Source of the DNA: Sphingomonas bacterium
Lineage (GTDB): Bacteria > Pseudomonadota > Alphaproteobacteria > Sphingomonadales > Sphingomonadaceae
Reading direction: 5' to 3'
Length of the DNA stretch: 5,067 bases
Assembly: GCF_903643065.1 (NCBI RefSeq)
Contig: NZ_CAHJWX010000191.1
Coordinates: forward strand, 1 to 5,067
In this document: one piece after another, positions 1 to 5,067 of the stretch
Layout: each line of letters opens with the position of its first letter
Numbering within the stretch: position 1 is the stretch's first letter
Notes under the pieces: model-generated
Databases searched by the model: none
Told to the model about the DNA's origin: nothing
The model's input: the letters and a program-made list of their open reading frames with translations, nothing else
Program-made: the position numbers and the translations under genes

Positions 1-605
1 ATGCCGAACACCGTGTTGGTGTAGATCGCCGAGATCGCCAGCATCTCCATGTAGCGGACGTGGGCATCGGGATCGTAGCGTGACGGAGGGCGATGCGCCC
101 GGAAGAACGGCGTATCGAACCGGGGATCGGTCACGCGATCGTCCATCGCATCGACCTCCCAGCCCTTGCGCGGCTGCATGGCGATGACGATCGGGGCGGT
201 ATAGACCATGTGGTCGGCATCGAGCGGGGTGAGCCTGGCGACCAGCCCGGCCGGTTGCGCGCCTATATCCTTGCGGGTCGGCTCGATCATGCCGGCCATC
301 ACGTTTTCGAGCGACGGGATCGAACCGCCATCGCGCTGCAATGCGGCTTGCGGCACCAGATCATAGCTGAGGCCACGCACGGCGTAGTCGGCGAGGAAGG
401 CATCGGCCATCAGCCCCAGCGCGGGCATTTCATAAGTTTTGCCGGTTTCAAGGCCGAGTCCCTTGACCCGTTCCCACAGGCTCGACGTGCCCGAGCTGGA
501 CCCCGCGCTTTCCGACGCCGAGCCGGACACCGACGAGCCGCCCCCGCTGCATCCGGCCAGCACGAGGCCCAGCGCGAGCGGGGCGAGGGCGCGCAGGCGG
601 ATCAT
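1..605 (-). CDS. Lipoprotein of unknown function, C-terminus missing (runs off left edge)
   Basis: An open frame of 201 complete codons runs from an ATG at 605-603 to the window edge without a stop, so the C-terminus is missing. The N-terminus is a classic lipoprotein signal: basic start MIRLR, hydrophobic stretch to residue 18, and lipobox L16-A17-G18-C19. Ser follows the Cys, which suggests outer-membrane rather than inner-membrane retention. Residues 20-42 are a Gly/Ser linker with no structure, and the folded part begins near SLWERVKGLGLETGKTYEMP. Further on there are acidic and aromatic stretches such as residues 159-169 (TDPRFDTPFFR) and a hydrophobic helix near 187-200. The start is well supported: GGAGG lies 7 nt upstream (617-613), and ATG overlaps the stop of the upstream gene (ATGA, 602-605), implying translational coupling. 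I do not recognise the family. Its place beside oriT suggests a conjugation-linked envelope protein (for example pilus assembly, mating-pair or exclusion function), but that is only inference. Confidence 0.82.
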   Translation of the reverse strand, partial: MIRLRALAPLALGLVLAGCSGGGSSVSGSASESAGSSSGTSSLWERVKGLGLETGKTYEMPALGLMADAFLADYAVRGLSYDLVPQAALQRDGGSIPSLENVMAGMIEPTRKDIGAQPAGLVARLTPLDADHMVYTAPIVIAMQPRKGWEVDAMDDRVTDPRFDTPFFRAHRPPSRYDPDAHVRYMEMLAISAIYTNTVFG

Positions 606-943
606 CGTTTTTCCTCCACCATCAGGTTGTGCAGCTCGCGCGCGTTGCGTTCCAGATCATCGCTCGACCCGGCGAGCTTGGCTTCCAGTTCGGCCGCGCG
701 CTTGCGGAGGCGGGTGAGTTCGGCCGCGGCGGCAGGGTCGCAGGCGGGGCGGGGCTGTCCCGTCGCGGCCGACCAGTCGCGGTTGAACCCGGCATCGAAC
801 GCAGCGCGATCGGCGCGCACGACGGCCGTGTCGCGCTCGACCCGCACATCGACATGCTGTTGCCACGACACCGCTAGCCAGGTCAGCACCGCGGCGACCG
901 GGGCCGCCACCAGAGCGCCGGAAGCGAAGCCGCTCAGCGCCAT
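602..943 (-). CDS. Small membrane-anchored coiled-coil protein, unknown function
   Basis: A 113-residue protein with one N-terminal membrane segment (about residues 8-27, rich in Ala/Val/Leu) and short leading residues MALSGF. The middle (about 30-70) is hydrophilic, and residues 72-110 are a heptad-like helix (ELTRLRKRAAELEAKL) ending in charged EEKR. The layout is a bitopic protein with a periplasmic or cytoplasmic coiled coil, reminiscent in shape only of phage i-spanins or small secretion accessory proteins; I see no family motif. It overlaps the downstream lipoprotein by ATGA, and the last codons carry that gene's ribosome site. Its own start at 943 has no good Shine-Dalgarno sequence (GGGTT about 3-4 nt upstream is poor), so the start is less certain than the frame. 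A longer plus-strand frame antisense to it has an arginine- and alanine-rich, structureless translation and is taken as a shadow. The membrane-protein plus lipoprotein pairing suggests they work together at the envelope. Confidence 0.72.
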   Translation of the reverse strand: MALSGFASGALVAAPVAAVLTWLAVSWQQHVDVRVERDTAVVRADRAAFDAGFNRDWSAATGQPRPACDPAAAAELTRLRKRAAELEAKLAGSSDDLERNARELHNLMVEEKR

Positions 944-980: not shown

Positions 981-997
981 GCGAGCTTTCAGCTCGC
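981..997. repeat. Hairpin, 7-bp stem, in oriT region
   Basis: Perfect inverted repeat GCGAGCT-TTC-AGCTCGC. On the plus strand it is followed by TCAGTTTT, giving a weak terminator-like look, but there is no plus-strand gene upstream of it. It lies 3' of the candidate nic on the minus strand and in the leader of the 602-943 gene, so it may be an oriT element or shape that leader. Confidence 0.55.
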
Positions 998-1005
998 TCA
1001 GTTTT

Positions 1006-1022
1006 GATCCACACCCTACGCA
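1006..1022 (-). other. nic: Candidate nic site, F-plasmid-like core
   Basis: Read on the minus strand these bases are TGCGTAGGGTGTGGATC. The F-plasmid TraI target, as I remember it, is TGCGTGGGGTGT^GGTGC, which gives 14 of 17 matches including an unbroken GGGTGTGG core. By analogy the cut falls between the complements of plus-strand positions 1011 and 1010. Directly 5' of it on the same strand is the palindrome GCACGCGTGC (1029-1020), and 5-bp arms CTACG (1040-1036) and CGTAG (1020-1016) could form a hairpin ending next to the core, as MOBF nic sites usually have. The polarity would send the lipoprotein side first and the tra genes last. Confidence 0.52.
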
Positions 1023-1039
1023 CGCGTGCAGCCCCCGTA

Positions 1040-1075: not shown

Positions 1076-1104
1076 ATGGCAACATATGGCCGGGAGCTTG
1101 TCAA
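1076..1104 (-). promoter_or_regulatory. Possible divergent promoter for the lipoprotein unit
   Basis: On the minus strand a perfect TTGACA -35 box lies at 1104-1099, followed after 17 nt by TGCCAT (1081-1076), a poor -10 with 3 of 6 consensus bases. If used, transcription would start near 1069 and give a leader of about 125 nt that crosses the repeat-rich oriT before the gene starting at 943. The -35 overlaps the plus-strand -35, so the two directions would compete. Confidence 0.3.
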
Positions 1105-1129
1105 CAGGGCTAGGCAGTAGGCCGATAAT
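1101..1129 (+). promoter_or_regulatory. Probable sigma-70-type promoter for the RHH/transfer genes
   Basis: TCAACA (1101-1106, 4 of 6) and GATAAT (1124-1129, 5 of 6) are separated by 17 nt. The predicted start near 1136 falls inside the inverted repeat at 1131-1149, and the ribosome site of the RHH gene follows at 1153-1158. The spacing and the operator-like repeat make this the most convincing promoter in the window. Confidence 0.5.
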
Positions 1130-1130
1130 G

Positions 1131-1149
1131 CGTACTCTCAGCGAGTACG
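1131..1149. promoter_or_regulatory. Operator-like inverted repeat over the transcription start
   Basis: CGTACTC-TCAGC-GAGTACG has perfect 7-bp arms around a 5-bp centre. It sits between the -10 box (ends 1129) and the Shine-Dalgarno sequence (starts 1153), exactly where a repressor would block initiation. RHH accessory proteins such as TrwA are known to repress their own operons, so autorepression by the 1164-1571 product is the natural reading. As RNA the same bases form a small hairpin just upstream of the ribosome site. Confidence 0.5.
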
Positions 1150-1163
1150 ATCGAGGAGCGGCG

Positions 1164-1571
1164 ATGGCCCGCGTGATGCTGACGGCGCGCGTGACGGACA
1201 CCCAGGCGGCGGCCCTAAAAAGCTACGCGGCCGAGGTCGGGTTGCCGGTCTATCAGGCGACCGTTCGCGCGCTCGAGCTCGGCATCGCGGCGCTTGTCGG
1301 GGGTAGGGGAGCGGAGCCGGCGAGGCCTGAACCGACCCCGGCGGCGAGCGTATCGGCGGGGGAGGTGGAGGCGTTGCGCGAAGCGGTGGATCGGCTGACC
1401 GTGCGGGCCGAGCTGACTGACCGGCTTACCCAGCGTACCCTATACGCAGCCGGGGCGGCCTATGCGGCGGCGCTGGCGGGGCCGACCCAGGACGCCGACA
1501 GGCTGGCGGGCATCGCCGCGGACGCGGACAGGATATTCGATCGGCAGCTCGCTAGGGCGAGGGGACAGTAA
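1164..1571 (+). CDS. Ribbon-helix-helix-like relaxosome accessory protein (TrwA/TraY role)
   Basis: A 135-residue protein. Residues 3-10 (RVMLTARV) look like the DNA-contacting beta strand of a ribbon-helix-helix domain, followed by helix A (about 11-25, TDTQAAALKSYAAEVG) and helix B (about 28-45, PVYQATVRALELGIAAL) with the short turn GLP between them. A Pro/Ala/Glu-rich linker (46-63) leads to a long helical C-terminal part (65-134) with heptad-like spacing, probably for oligomerisation. This two-part layout and length fit TrwA-like oriT-binding proteins. The start at 1164 is chosen because GAGGAG (1153-1158) sits 5 nt upstream and the RHH strand begins immediately. In-frame ATGs at 1053 and 1128 lie in the repeat region and inside the -10 box and lack ribosome sites. 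Role: bind and bend oriT, help MobF nick, stimulate the coupling protein, and probably repress its own promoter. The fold is read by eye with no clear family signature, so the function leans on synteny. Confidence 0.75.
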   Translation: MARVMLTARVTDTQAAALKSYAAEVGLPVYQATVRALELGIAALVGGRGAEPARPEPTPAASVSAGEVEALREAVDRLTVRAELTDRLTQRTLYAAGAAYAAALAGPTQDADRLAGIAADADRIFDRQLARARGQ

Positions 1572-1579
1572 GGACTGTC
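1564..1579. repeat. Small inverted repeat spanning the RHH stop codon
   Basis: GACAGT-AAGG-ACTGTC, 6-bp stem and 4-nt loop, includes the TAA stop (1569-1571). A third copy of GACAGT occurs at 1612-1617, before the ribosome site of the next gene. No T-run follows, so it is not a standard terminator. It could reduce readthrough, stabilise the RHH message end, or be chance. Confidence 0.3.
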
Positions 1580-1643
1580 ATCTCGACCTAGACGGGCAGG
1601 GCTAATCATCCGACAGTATGCCGGTTCAAAGGGGAGAAGGGGA

Positions 1644-1832
1644 ATGGGGACGTTTTCGGTCATCGTCGATGTCATCAAAGTCGTCGGCAAAGGCGCGACC
1701 CAGGCGAGTAGGCGCGTAAAGGCGGACGATATGCGAACCGCAATGAAACTCGGGAAAGGGGCGATTCAGGCCATGTACCCCGCCGCCAAAGTGATCGTGA
1801 AGAACGTGATTAAGCTAAAGGGCAATCTTTGA
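1644..1832 (+). CDS. Small cationic protein of unknown function
   Basis: A 62-residue protein with 12 Lys/Arg, 3 Asp and no Glu, so strongly basic (about +9). It contains an internal repeat with a 22-residue period: GKGATQA at 15-21 and GKGAIQA at 37-43. The N-terminus (residues 4-14) and the C-terminal part (46-58, AAKVIVKNVIKL) are alternately hydrophobic and basic, so amphipathic. The start is supported by a purine-rich ribosome site (GGGGAG at 1631-1636 and AGAAGG at 1635-1640). It lies 72 bp after the RHH gene and 24 bp before the coupling protein, in the same direction. I do not recognise it. Options are a nucleic-acid-binding helper, a membrane-active peptide or a regulator of the coupling protein, none supported by a motif. 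Its base composition is patchy and somewhat lower in GC than the neighbours. Reality of the gene rests on the ribosome site, the fit in the operon and the regular protein pattern. Confidence 0.62.
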   Translation: MGTFSVIVDVIKVVGKGATQASRRVKADDMRTAMKLGKGAIQAMYPAAKVIVKNVIKLKGNL

Positions 1833-1856
1833 TGTAATCGAATGGGGGACAGGTAG

Positions 1857-3665
1857 ATGGCCACTCGCGCTGAACTCCTCTCCCGCGGCCAGGCGAGCAG
1901 GAACCGGCATTGGGCAGGCGTCAACGCGCGCGCTCAGGTGGCGGCTATCCTGTTCCTGCTATGCGCGGGCGTGGGCGCGTTCGCGGGCTGGACGACCGCC
2001 CCGGACCTCACCCGGCGCGAGGCGGCGTTGTACGCCAAGACGCAGGGGCGCGAGCTGCTGGACCCGTTCGGGCGCAACCTGCACACCTATGAGGCCGAGA
2101 CGCGCGTCGCGGCGCGCGACGACATTCTCGACCCCGCCAGCCCCGCCACGCGGGGCTTCAAGCGCCTGTTATGGCGGATGGGGTTCTTCGCCATTTTGTG
2201 CGGCGTCGCGATCGGGGTTCCGCTGTATCGCTGGCGCAGGCGGGCATGGGCCAGCGCGGGCGAAAAGGCGGGGCGCGACCGCACCGTTCGCGGAGCGGAG
2301 CGGGTGGACGCGGCGACCTTGGCGCGTATGGTCCCGATCGGCGCGGCCGAACGGCCGGTGACGATCGGCGGCGTTCCCGTGCCGGTGGCCGAGGAGGCCC
2401 GGCACTTCCTGTTCGCGGGCGCGACCGGCACCGGCAAGACGACCGCGATATGGGCGATGCTCGACCAGGTGGAGCGGCGCGGGCAGCACGCGTTCGTGCA
2501 TGACGTGGATGGCGGCTATGTCGCGCGCTACTACCGGCCCGAACGCGGCGACCTCATTCTCAATCCGTTCGACGCGCGTTGCGCCTATTGGAACCCGTTC
2601 AGCGACGTTCGTTCGGCATCGGACGCCGACCGGCTGGCGGGCTTCATCGTCGCCAAGCCCGCAGGCGGCAGCGCCGGGGGCGACGATGTTTGGTACGACC
2701 AGGCCCGCATCGTCGTCGCGGCCGTCATTCGGCGCTTGTGGGAGCAGGGCAGGGGCAACGTCCCCGAGTTGACCCGCGCGCTTCGCGATATGACGCCCGA
2801 CGAGCTGGCGGAGCTGACGCGGGGCACCGAGGCCGCGCGCGTGTTCCAGAAGGACGCCGACAAGGCGACCGCGAGCGTGCTGTTCTGTCTGGCGGAGGCG
2901 GCGAAGATCGTCGGCGCGTTGAAGGCCGCGTCCGGCGACGGGCCGACCGTCAGCTTCGATGATTTCTACGCGGGCCTTCCCGGCATCGAGGGCGCGAAGC
3001 CTTGGATATTTCTGGCGTCGCGCAAGCGTAACTTCGCCGCGGCGCGGCCCCTACTCGGGTGCTGGCTGGATTGCGCCGTGGCGGCGATCCTCGACCGGCC
3101 GATCAAGGGCGCGCCGCGCGCGTGGCTTGTGCTGGACGAGCTTCCCGCGCTTCCCCGCGCGAGCGGGCTGCTCACCTTGCTCCCCGAGGGACGCAAGTTC
3201 GGGGCGGCGTGCGTCATCGCCTTTCAGGCGATCGGCCAGCTTCGCGACACCTACGGCCCGAACGCCGCGGGCACGATCGTGGGCCAGGCCGGCACTCAGC
3301 TCGTCATGCGCCTTGGCGACCCCGAGAGCACGAAATGGGCGACCGAGCTGCTAGGCCGGTCGGAGGTGGAGGAGCACCGATCGTCGGCCTCGCTCGACAG
3401 CGACGCATGGACCGACAAGGGTTCGCTATCGACCATGCGGCAAACCAAGCCGATCGTGCTCGACAGCGAGATCGGCCACTTGCCCCCGTTGACCGGGTTC
3501 CTGCGTCTGTCCGGCTTGCCGATCGCGCGCGTGGCAATCGACCGGGCGCACATGGAACGGCCCGACATAGCCGAGGCGACCGTTCCCGTGACGGCGCGAC
3601 CGGCACCGGGAGCGACGTCGGTTTCCACCATTACGATCGACCGGACAGCCGGAGGAGCACTATGA
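1857..3665 (+). CDS. traD: Type IV coupling protein, VirD4/TraD/TrwB-type DNA-pumping ATPase
   Basis: A 602-residue inner-membrane ATPase that links the relaxosome to the type IV secretion channel and drives DNA transfer. Two membrane segments are visible, about residues 26-45 and 108-124, with a small periplasmic loop between, and basic RWRRR following the second. The nucleotide-binding domain begins near 150: Walker A GATGTGKT at 188-195 (Lys194, Thr195), and Walker B WLVLDELPALP at 423-433 (Asp427, Glu428). FQAIGQL at 456-462 matches the conserved glutamine motif of this family, and the insertion between Walker motifs (about 250-380) corresponds to the all-alpha domain. FLASRKRNFAAARPLL (385-400) is also typical of TraD/TrwB. 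The C-terminal tail after about 560 is short and lacks the long acidic extension of F TraD; the length lies between TrwB (about 507) and F TraD (about 717). GGGGGA (1844-1849) is 7 nt upstream of the ATG. The stop overlaps a downstream ATG (ATGA), and GGAGGA near the end serves the next frame. It acts with the RHH protein and the MobF relaxase encoded alongside. Confidence 0.96.
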   Translation: MATRAELLSRGQASRNRHWAGVNARAQVAAILFLLCAGVGAFAGWTTAPDLTRREAALYAKTQGRELLDPFGRNLHTYEAETRVAARDDILDPASPATRGFKRLLWRMGFFAILCGVAIGVPLYRWRRRAWASAGEKAGRDRTVRGAERVDAATLARMVPIGAAERPVTIGGVPVPVAEEARHFLFAGATGTGKTTAIWAMLDQVERRGQHAFVHDVDGGYVARYYRPERGDLILNPFDARCAYWNPFSDVRSASDADRLAGFIVAKPAGGSAGGDDVWYDQARIVVAAVIRRLWEQGRGNVPELTRALRDMTPDELAELTRGTEAARVFQKDADKATASVLFCLAEAAKIVGALKAASGDGPTVSFDDFYAGLPGIEGAKPWIFLASRKRNFAAARPLLGCWLDCAVAAILDRPIKGAPRAWLVLDELPALPRASGLLTLLPEGRKFGAACVIAFQAIGQLRDTYGPNAAGTIVGQAGTQLVMRLGDPESTKWATELLGRSEVEEHRSSASLDSDAWTDKGSLSTMRQTKPIVLDSEIGHLPPLTGFLRLSGLPIARVAIDRAHMERPDIAEATVPVTARPAPGATSVSTITIDRTAGGAL

Positions 3666-3694
3666 CAGGGGGAAGGAAGCAAGATGCTCGCTAA
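3662..3694 (+). CDS. Possible 10-codon minicistron (coupling leader)
   Basis: An ATG overlaps the traD stop (ATGA, 3662-3665) and has the best-looking Shine-Dalgarno sequence nearby, GGAGGA at 3651-3656, 5 nt upstream. The frame reads MTGGRKQDAR and ends at TAA (3692-3694), 8 nt beyond the ATG of the 3684 gene. It may have no product of its own and simply hand ribosomes from traD to the next start, or the ribosome site may be leftover from a traD-traI junction broken by insertion of the 3684 gene. I cannot tell whether the peptide is made. Confidence 0.3.
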   Translation: MTGGRKQDAR

Positions 3695-4220
3695 GTCCGT
3701 TCAGGTGCTTTGTGCGGCGACAGTCGCGTTCACGCTCGCCAGCTCGGCGCTGGCGAAGCAGGCCACGTTGCAGGATGCGTTGCTCGACAGGCTGGAAGGC
3801 GCTTGGGTTATTACCGGCACGATCGCGGGCGAGAGGACAATCCACGATCTCACCGCGGAATGGGTGAACCAGCACCAATATCTACGATTGCACGAGGTAT
3901 CGCGCGAACGCGAGCAGGACGGCCGCCCCAAATACGAAGCGACGGTTTACATCGGCTGGAATCAGCCAACGGCTAAATACGGGATCGTTTGGCTGGACGA
4001 TTTTGGCGGACTATCTACCCAATCTATCGGCCTTGCCCCCAAAGAAGGCGACCAGCTCCCGTTTGTGTTCACTAACCCGGACGGCAGTTTCACACGCACG
4101 ACCATGACCTATAGCCCGGCGACGAAGGGCTGGGCCTGGACTATAGACGAGGACCGGGCAGGCAAGCTGTCCCGGTTCGCGGCGTTGACGCTGGCGCGGG
4201 TGGGGGCTGCGAGGCGGTAA
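3684..4220 (+). CDS. Exported beta-rich protein, possibly DUF1579/lipocalin-like, unknown role
   Basis: A 178-residue protein with a clear Sec signal peptide: basic start MLAKS, hydrophobic core about 6-20, and cleavage motif A22-L23-A24 before Lys25. The mature part starts with a helix and LLDRLEGAWVITGTIAGERT (about 33-52), then alternating strands, for example YLRLHEV, YEATVYIGW, KYGIVWLDDFGG, FTRTTMTYS and GWAWTIDED. The L-x-x-L-x-G-x-W opening followed by strands resembles DUF1579-type or lipocalin-like beta-barrel proteins, but this is a by-eye impression at low certainty. No catalytic motif is seen. The start has GGAAGG (3671-3676) 7 nt upstream. The stop TAA shares its last A with the ATG of the relaxase gene (TAATG), so it is co-translated with it. 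Two 60-base stretches I counted (3841-3900, 3961-4020) are about 52% GC against about 68% for a comparable stretch of traD, which suggests a later arrival. A periplasmic protein between coupling protein and relaxase is not part of the R388 or F arrangement. Confidence 0.85.
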   Translation: MLAKSVQVLCAATVAFTLASSALAKQATLQDALLDRLEGAWVITGTIAGERTIHDLTAEWVNQHQYLRLHEVSREREQDGRPKYEATVYIGWNQPTAKYGIVWLDDFGGLSTQSIGLAPKEGDQLPFVFTNPDGSFTRTTMTYSPATKGWAWTIDEDRAGKLSRFAALTLARVGAARR

Positions 4221-5067
4221 TGGTCGCGTCCGTCGCCTCGCTCAAAAGCGCCGGGCAGGCCGCGAGCTACTACGAGGCGGATGATTATTACACCGAGGGC
4301 GGCGAGGCCCCGAGCGCGTGGTTCGGCGAGGGGGCGAAGGCGCTAGGGCTGGAGGGCGAGGTGAACCGCGCCGCGTTCGCGGCCGGGCTTGAGGGCAAGC
4401 TACCCAACGGCGACCAGCTCGGCACCGTCAGGAACGGCGAGCGCGAGCATCGCCCCGGTTGGGACATGACCTTTTCCGCGCCCAAGTCGGTATCGATCAT
4501 GGCGGAGGTCGCGGGCGATCGGCGCTTGATCGGCGCGCACGACAAGGCGGTCAGGGTCGCGCTCGACTATATCGAGCGGCACGGCGCGGCGACGCGGGCG
4601 CGCCAAGGCGGCGAGGTCCGCACGATCGACACCGGCAAACTGGCGGTCGCGACGTTCCGCCACAACACCAGCCGCGCCCAGGACCCGCAGCTTCACACCC
4701 ATAGCGTCATCCTGAACGCCACCCCCGACAAGGCGGGCAACTGGCGCAGCGTCGAGAGCCTGGCGTTCTTTCGCATCTACAAGGATGCAGGGAGCATCTA
4801 CCGGCAGGCGCTGGCGGGCGAGGCGCGCCAGCTCGGTTACGGCACCGTGGAGGGGAAGGGTGGCACGTTCGAGCTGGCGGGCGTCCCCGAGGCTGCGATC
4901 CGCGAGTTCAGCGCGCGCGGGAACAAGGTGGAGGAGGCGCTTGCCGAGCGCGGCAAGACGCGCGCGAACGCGACCGCGGCCGAGAAGGCGACCATCACGC
5001 TCGCCACCCGCGAGGCGAAGGAGCACATCGCGCGTGAGGCGCTTGTGCCGACGTGGCGTACCCAAGC
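4220..5067 (+). CDS. mobF: MOBF-family relaxase (TrwC/TraI-like), N-terminal domain; runs off right edge
   Basis: 282 complete codons from ATG 4220 to the window end, with no stop. The protein nicks oriT, stays bound to the 5' end and is exported into the recipient; full-length members carry a RecD-like helicase after the relaxase domain, expected beyond this window. Tyrosines Y17-Y18 and Y23-Y24 match the catalytic pairs of TrwC (Y18, Y26). D82 in GWDMTFSAPKSVS matches the conserved acidic residue, and the metal-binding three-His motif is complete at H148, H159 and H161 (HNTSRAQDPQLHTHSVILN). The following segment with AGSIYRQALAGEARQLGYG and FELAGVPEAAIREFSARG is also typical of TrwC. The N-terminus has the usual length before the tyrosines, which supports the start; GAGG (4211-4214) lies 5 nt upstream. 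The start overlaps the preceding stop by one base (TAATG), so synthesis is probably coupled to it. All catalytic residues I can check are present, so the relaxase domain looks functional. Confidence 0.96.
   Translation, partial: MVASVASLKSAGQAASYYEADDYYTEGGEAPSAWFGEGAKALGLEGEVNRAAFAAGLEGKLPNGDQLGTVRNGEREHRPGWDMTFSAPKSVSIMAEVAGDRRLIGAHDKAVRVALDYIERHGAATRARQGGEVRTIDTGKLAVATFRHNTSRAQDPQLHTHSVILNATPDKAGNWRSVESLAFFRIYKDAGSIYRQALAGEARQLGYGTVEGKGGTFELAGVPEAAIREFSARGNKVEEALAERGKTRANATAAEKATITLATREAKEHIAREALVPTWRTQ

Follow-up and report, generated by a model that had tools for sequence, protein, structure and literature searches.

Does a transfer origin with a nic motif resembling that of F, set beside genes ordered as in R388, have a mixed ancestry, or is such a combination ordinary for MOBF elements? 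The question is raised by the stretch of DNA analyzed here (the window), which is one whole contig of 5,067 bases from a fragmented Sphingomonas genome (72% complete). The initial annotation had favored mixed ancestry. We conclude that the window contains a real, conserved MOBF oriT that is ordinary in kind. With a probability of roughly 0.9, the motif is a MOBF nic, the predicted target of the relaxase encoded at 4220-5067, with the minus strand expected to be nicked where the complement of position 1011 joins that of 1010 (a placement transferred from F and R388), and its F-like and R388-like looks reflect common inheritance and base changes matched to the relaxase rather than a fusion.

The nic motif and its gene neighborhood

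The minus strand from 1022 to 1006 reads TGCGTAGGGTGTGGATC. We compared it with nic sequences fetched for F (TGCGTGGGGTGTGGTGC, L027), R100 (TGCGTAGTGTGTGGTGC, L028), and R388 (TGCGTATTGTCTATAGC, L026). The window matched F and R100 at 14 of 17 bases each and R388 at 11; over the first 14 bases the matches numbered 13, 13, and 9, respectively. The earlier proposals that this is an F-like nic, sharing 14 of its 17 bases with F, and that the nic of R388 differs are therefore borne out by the fetched sequences. The window has a single exact copy of the 14-mer. If as many as three mismatches are allowed, however, 0.45 matches are expected per shuffle, and so the motif match by itself is modest evidence.

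What lifts the motif beyond chance is its conservation at the same position in related loci. Across all seven loci of the window's clade (the window, Sphingomonas hominis, pSA1, Actirhodobacter atriluteus, Novosphingobium marinum, pP6W2, and Croceicoccus hydrothermalis), 20 of the 22 columns of the site GCACxCGTGCGTAxGGTGTGGA are invariant, one variable base falling in the nic core, while the flanks vary across genera; the mean column identity of the 100-column alignment is 80%. Conservation upstream of related gene sets had been set beforehand as a test that could refute the annotation, and the motif was present in every one of the seven loci. The GCAC/GTGC arms of the nic-proximal repeat also recur in Sphingopyxis, Blastomonas, Rhodovastum, and R388. 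With at most one mismatch, the 22-base site was found in four of 397 genomes of the window's family: the window's own, G086 (whose site is that of the A. atriluteus locus, L024), G290 (whose site is the nic site of L175), and G135. A predicted single-strand fold in which the nic core pairs with CCACGCTACG was set aside because the CCACGCTACG stretch varies in relatives.

The features of the window are collected in Table 1. The gene order had been described as oriT, RHH protein, coupling protein, and MOBF relaxase, as in the R388-type module. This order was confirmed, but it is interrupted by two extra ORFs (the 62-aa and 178-aa frames), and the RHH assignment stands on weaker ground. A search with the accessory protein found 107 proteins, including the window's own. 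The protein had no Pfam or NCBIfam family hit. Its model is coil-helix-helix, with helices at residues 12-25 and 29-45 and no strand assigned (mean pLDDT 81.7, pTM 0.42), and the best four structural matches from Foldseek, at E values of 1.1-3.1, are to proteins that we take to be RHH antitoxins. The model thus weakly suggests a place in the RHH class. The inverted repeat just ahead of this gene is a possible operator or accessory-protein site.

Table 1. Features of the window, with the basis on which each was placed
Feature	Coordinates	Strand	Basis or remark
Predicted lipoprotein	3..605	minus	N-terminus reading; runs off window; same position in 7/7 clade loci
113-aa protein	602..943	minus	Predicted leading side; same position in 7/7 clade loci
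Post-nic hairpin, GCGAGCT-GAA-AGCTCGC	981..997	minus	Starts 14 nt 3' of predicted cut; folds in window
Nic core, TGCGTAGGGTGT^GG	1009..1022	minus	Exact match; aligned to F, R100, and R388; cut placed from F and R388
Nic-proximal inverted repeat, GCACGCGTGC	1020..1029	minus	Counterpart of R388 IR2; adjoins GTAGGGTGT; one base varies over 7 loci
Promoter-like site ahead of rightward gene set	1101..1129	plus	Predicted; consensus scan, 1 versus shuffle mean of 0.0
Inverted repeat, CGTACTC-TCAGC-GAGTACG	1131..1149	plus	Immediately ahead of RHH-like gene; read from sequence
RHH-like accessory protein, 135 aa	1164..1571	plus	TrwA position of R388
62-aa ORF	1644..1832	plus	Only in window among 13 loci compared
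TrwB/TraD-type coupling protein, 602 aa	1857..3665	plus	Pfam TrwB_AAD_bind, E 3.7e-104
Predicted secreted protein, 178 aa	3684..4220	plus	Very weak DUF1579 hit; signal read from N-terminus
MOBF relaxase, N-terminal 282 aa	4220..5067	plus	Truncated by contig end

The 178-aa gene separates the coupling protein gene from the relaxase gene, and its stop overlaps the start of the latter. Its product matched nothing in the 12 other loci of the comparison; in those loci the coupling protein and relaxase genes overlap, abut, or are no more than about 25 bases apart. In the Croceicoccus locus (L023), two long ORFs with lipoprotein-like starts lie at 2742-5001, between the RHH-like and coupling genes. 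We note that the operon position between these two genes suggests a place where lineage-specific cargo gathers. On the other side of the oriT, the window has no stb genes (an R388-type trait). Its 113-aa and lipoprotein genes stand there, and neither was matched in the R388 stretch; a search with the 113-aa protein found 71 proteins, none with a precomputed Pfam domain. An Rfam scan of the window found nothing, and scans of viral contigs gave no relative and no match.

The relaxase belongs to the MOBF family (Pfam TrwC, E 1.9e-87; NCBIfam MobF, 285 bits against a cut-off of 100). It keeps both tyrosine pairs (R388 positions 18, 19, 26, and 27) and the HUH histidines (150, 161, and 163). The contig ends at residue 282 of the relaxase, and the C-terminal helicase domain characteristic of the family would lie beyond it; in four relatives of the clade the frame stays open for 925-969 residues, and two others stop at contig ends.

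A survey of MOBF nic sites and the hairpin 3' of nic

We scanned the DNA upstream of the relaxase in 115 MOBF loci for GTxxxGT[G/C/A]T directly adjoining a hairpin, with no constraint on bases 19-21. This rule picked out a site in 57 loci on the strand opposite to the relaxase gene and in one on the same strand, as compared with 2-11 and 2-12 loci, respectively, for seven decoy motifs. (Among the 57 matches, that in pWW0, L032, is spurious, being 7 kb off, and L008 has an extra, spurious second match.) In the window, too, a hairpin arm and the GTxxxGTGT that follows it lie on the strand opposite to that of the relaxase gene, in agreement with the earlier placement of a MOBF nic on the minus strand. 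The distance from nic to the relaxase start is 3.2 kb in the window and about 2.3 kb in most pMC4-like loci. Together with its conservation, this makes it almost certain that the motif is the nic of a MOBF oriT.

The rule gave no match in the remaining 58 loci, which include L161, L167, L171, L180, L182, and L185, all close to matched loci, as well as Marinobacter L021 and IncN L081 and L082. By region set, it was without a match in 17 of 20 regions of one set and 15 of 16 of another; in three sphingomonad sets it matched 17, 14, and 6 of 20. Some unmatched loci could not contain the site, being cut by contig ends or belonging to F-like sets with nic tens of kilobases away. In all, the survey yields 60 MOBF nic assignments, including the F, R100, and R388 reference sites: 56 by the rule, pWW0 and IncN L081 (by eye) outside it, and F and R100, in which nic and relaxase are in different fetched stretches. 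The doubtful sites L075, L191, and L194 are retained in the counts. Three F-like upstream stretches outside the 60 were searched separately; L111 and L116 have the site on the strand opposite the relaxase, and L109 has a weak candidate only, on the wrong strand.

These controls bear on whether the site might be a chance match or a decayed, non-functional relic, as could be imagined for a contig of just 5067 bases with a cut-off relaxase and a 14-mer that, at three mismatches, is not rare by composition. We regard this as very improbable, given the outcome of the strand and decoy comparisons, the 20 columns that stay fixed across genera amid varying flanks, and the open frames of the coupling protein and of the part of the relaxase that is present.

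Relatives of the MOBF relaxase occur in 129 of the 397 family genomes, many on megabase-size contigs, and integrated MOBF elements may therefore be common in the family. The window's genome itself has a second MOBF set on another contig (L061, contig C22), with nic near 6021 (GTCAGGTGT^GT), a 3' hairpin, and a relaxase that has Gln paired with C at the positions considered below; a third MOBF relaxase (L075, contig C312) has a possible nic, GTGGTGTGT, at about 102, by the contig edge.

A second conserved element emerged 3' of nic. A stem of at least six pairs within 60 nt of nic was present in 43 of the 60 loci, as against a mean of 1.6 and a maximum of 7 in 200 mononucleotide shuffles, and 34 of these 43 stems are closed by a GNA triloop. 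Their arms show compensatory changes (CGATAC/GTATCG, CGATGC/GCATCG, CGAGCT/AGCTCG, CGAGGC/GCCTCG, and CGGATC/GATCCG). The stem begins at +13 or +14 in the window clade and at +19 in most of the next group; those of F, R100, and pWW0 begin at +8 to +12 and have four-base loops. The hairpin is not universal to oriT, because a six-pair stem is absent from R388, from Rhodovastum, and from the loci with Asn193.

Could this hairpin belong to the leftward genes, as a terminator or a leader element, and not to the oriT? Its score is that of a terminator on both strands, and it directly precedes the leftward gene that starts at 943. Its position is nonetheless fixed relative to nic within groups, and F, R100, and pWW0 also have stems close to nic; we consider a terminator or leader less likely than a part of the oriT, but a serious alternative. 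In F, a second TraI molecule is reported to load as a helicase on the 22 nt 3' of nic (PMC5422253), and by analogy the post-nic hairpin might position or delimit such loading. As a specific element at a constant offset from nic that can be deleted, the hairpin lends itself to tests of a role in strand transfer.

Ancestry of the site and a proposed pairing of nic bases with relaxase residues

The hint of a graft came from the contrast between the F-like core and the R388-like gene order. Bases are numbered here as in R388. Bases 22-25 of the window's nic are GTGT, not the GTCT of R388. Base 24 is G in 59 of the 60 sites, R388 alone having C. A study of TrwC (PMC4176350) likewise states that most MOBF plasmids have GTGT and that R388 has GTCT, and it attributes discrimination of base 24 to Lys262 of TrwC. 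Among the 60 loci, R388 is the only one with lysine at this position (L120 also has Lys262, and no site was found there). Because G24 is kept even by the R388 relatives L080, L081, and pWW0, it is R388 that deviates.

A relaxase tree placed the window with its six close relatives (support 100/100), inside a separate branch of 39 alphaproteobacterial rows (100/98). R388 joined IncN (L080 and L081) and pWW0 (100/98), all four being flagged as long branches of unsure placement (L188, a partial relaxase, was dropped). Since R388 groups with plasmids that keep G24, the change to C24 is most simply placed on R388's own branch, with the reservation that these rows are long branches. Over the relaxase domain, the window is 41% identical to R388 and 42% identical to F. 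The resemblance of the first relaxase residues to R388, pointed out in the initial annotation, is accordingly rejected as a distinguishing trait.

These results leave little room for a recombinant oriT made by placing the nic core of an F-type plasmid within a transfer module of the R388 type. Such an event would account for a core with 13 of 14 bases in common with F and 9 with R388, in the setting of R388 gene order. But R100 matches just as well as F; G24 is also found in IncN and pWW0 plasmids, whose genes are ordered as in R388; the distance of the relaxase from F is about the same as from R388; the nic plan is common to the window clade and its sister groups; and no GTCT-type relative of the window is found among the 60 sites. 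Recombination need not be invoked, because the F-like core and the R388-like gene order are each common across MOBF. We therefore rejected mixed ancestry, judged against F, R100, R388, pWW0, IncN, and the rest of the 115 loci, as extremely improbable: the near-universal G24 and the separate alphaproteobacterial branch of the relaxase speak against it. Thus, the apparent chimaera is the family norm, and R388, a usual reference, is the outlier.

How, then, do nic sites within the family come to differ? We looked at relaxase residues 193 and 201 (F TraI numbering), which we take to be the F/R100 specificity positions of TraI (Harley and Schildbach 2003). In 57 of 59 loci (L188, with a gap at the residue, was left out), base 19 agrees with what residue 193 leads one to expect: G accompanies Gln193 in 34 of 36 cases, and A or T accompanies another residue in 23 of 23. 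The exceptions are L175 (Gln with A) and L061 (Gln with C), and without the doubtful L075, L191, and L194 the fit is 54 of 56. F has Gln193 with G19 and R100 has Arg193 with A19; in the window, Tyr193 goes with A19, and Arg201 with G21. The separately searched L111 and L116 have G19 and G21, and their relaxases (L110 and L115) have Gln193 and Arg201, which fits the pairing. These counts are inflated because the sequences are related; state changes six times on the tree, which leaves six independent contrasts, of which five agree, none is opposed, and one is without difference (p 0.0625).

Residue 201 is linked less clearly to base 21. Arg201 goes with G in 40 loci and with A in one, other residues with G in 11, T in six, and C in one, and none of the six T21 loci has Arg201; independent pairs gave no clear result, and the link is only suggestive. 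One contact seen in R388, that of Asp183 to G17, is replaced by Leu in the window, though G17 is kept.

Taken together, the pairings raise the possibility of a family-wide code in which residue 193 sets base 19 (Gln reading G and others A or T) and residues 201 and 262 track bases 21 and 24, so that the window's site would embody changes within that code (Tyr193/A19 and Arg201/G21) rather than a hybrid. On the same reading, the mini-hairpin of an alphaproteobacterial branch, mostly with a GNA loop, would be an extra oriT part. We put this forward tentatively, at somewhat less than even odds. If the code is true, a relaxase alone could forecast an unseen MOBF nic and its partners in cross-mobilization. 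Searches of an open-access library brought up nothing plainly about the 193/19 pairing, and we make no claim to novelty in print. A double mutant of F TraI is reported to gain R100 specificity (PMC7826260). If the 193/19 pairing holds, that two-plasmid switch would extend towards a general rule by which transfer specificity is predicted from the relaxase sequence.

Proposed working of the oriT and comparison with known systems

By analogy with F and R388, transfer from this ordinary MOBF origin might proceed as follows. The RHH-like protein and the relaxase would assemble on the inverted repeats, with the relaxase binding the proximal arm and GTAGGGTGT. A catalytic tyrosine would cut after T25 and stay on the new 5' end, and the coupling protein would hand the complex to a type IV secretion channel; no channel is tied to the window contig, and one VirB4/TrbE-type gene lies on another contig of the genome. 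The strand would exit from the 943-1 side, so that the genes for the 113-aa protein and the lipoprotein would be the first to enter the recipient. As had been proposed, the transfer genes (1164-5067) would enter last, by the polarity known for F and R388. A second tyrosine would then re-cut nic and close the circle.

The closest known counterparts are MOBF plasmids of sphingomonads. Novosphingobium resinovorum pSA1, Novosphingobium sp. P6W pP6W2, Sphingopyxis indica pMC4, and Blastomonas pBSY18_2 all have the same plan of hairpin, nic, and hairpin. The nic of pSA1 is the window's over 14 bases and that of pP6W2 differs by one base, and in both plasmids the genes follow the window's order of RHH-like protein, coupling protein, and relaxase; pSA1 is typed as conjugative (on a MOBP relaxase) and pP6W2 as mobilizable. 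The pair pMC4 and pBSY18_2 is unlike the window in having GTGAGGTGT^GT and another flanking gene set. No oriT appears in the feature tables of these plasmids, which cover coding genes only.

F and R100 share with the window the GTGT^GG core, a hairpin abutting the 5' side of nic, and a hairpin (of 8 bp) 3' of nic, and their relaxases are 42-43% identical to the window's. Base 19 of the window's nic is as in R100 and base 21 as in F. Unlike the window, both plasmids have the relaxase gene far from the oriT and traM and traY near it. R388, IncN, and pWW0, on the other hand, have the window's gene order, and R388 also has TGCGTA beside the GTGC arm, but the nic of IncN and pWW0 is GTGT^AT, and R388 differs from the window in its GTCT^AT, its Lys262, and the absence of a six-pair 3' hairpin. 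Beyond the oriT, finally, R388 has the stbB gene set where the window has the 113-aa and lipoprotein genes.
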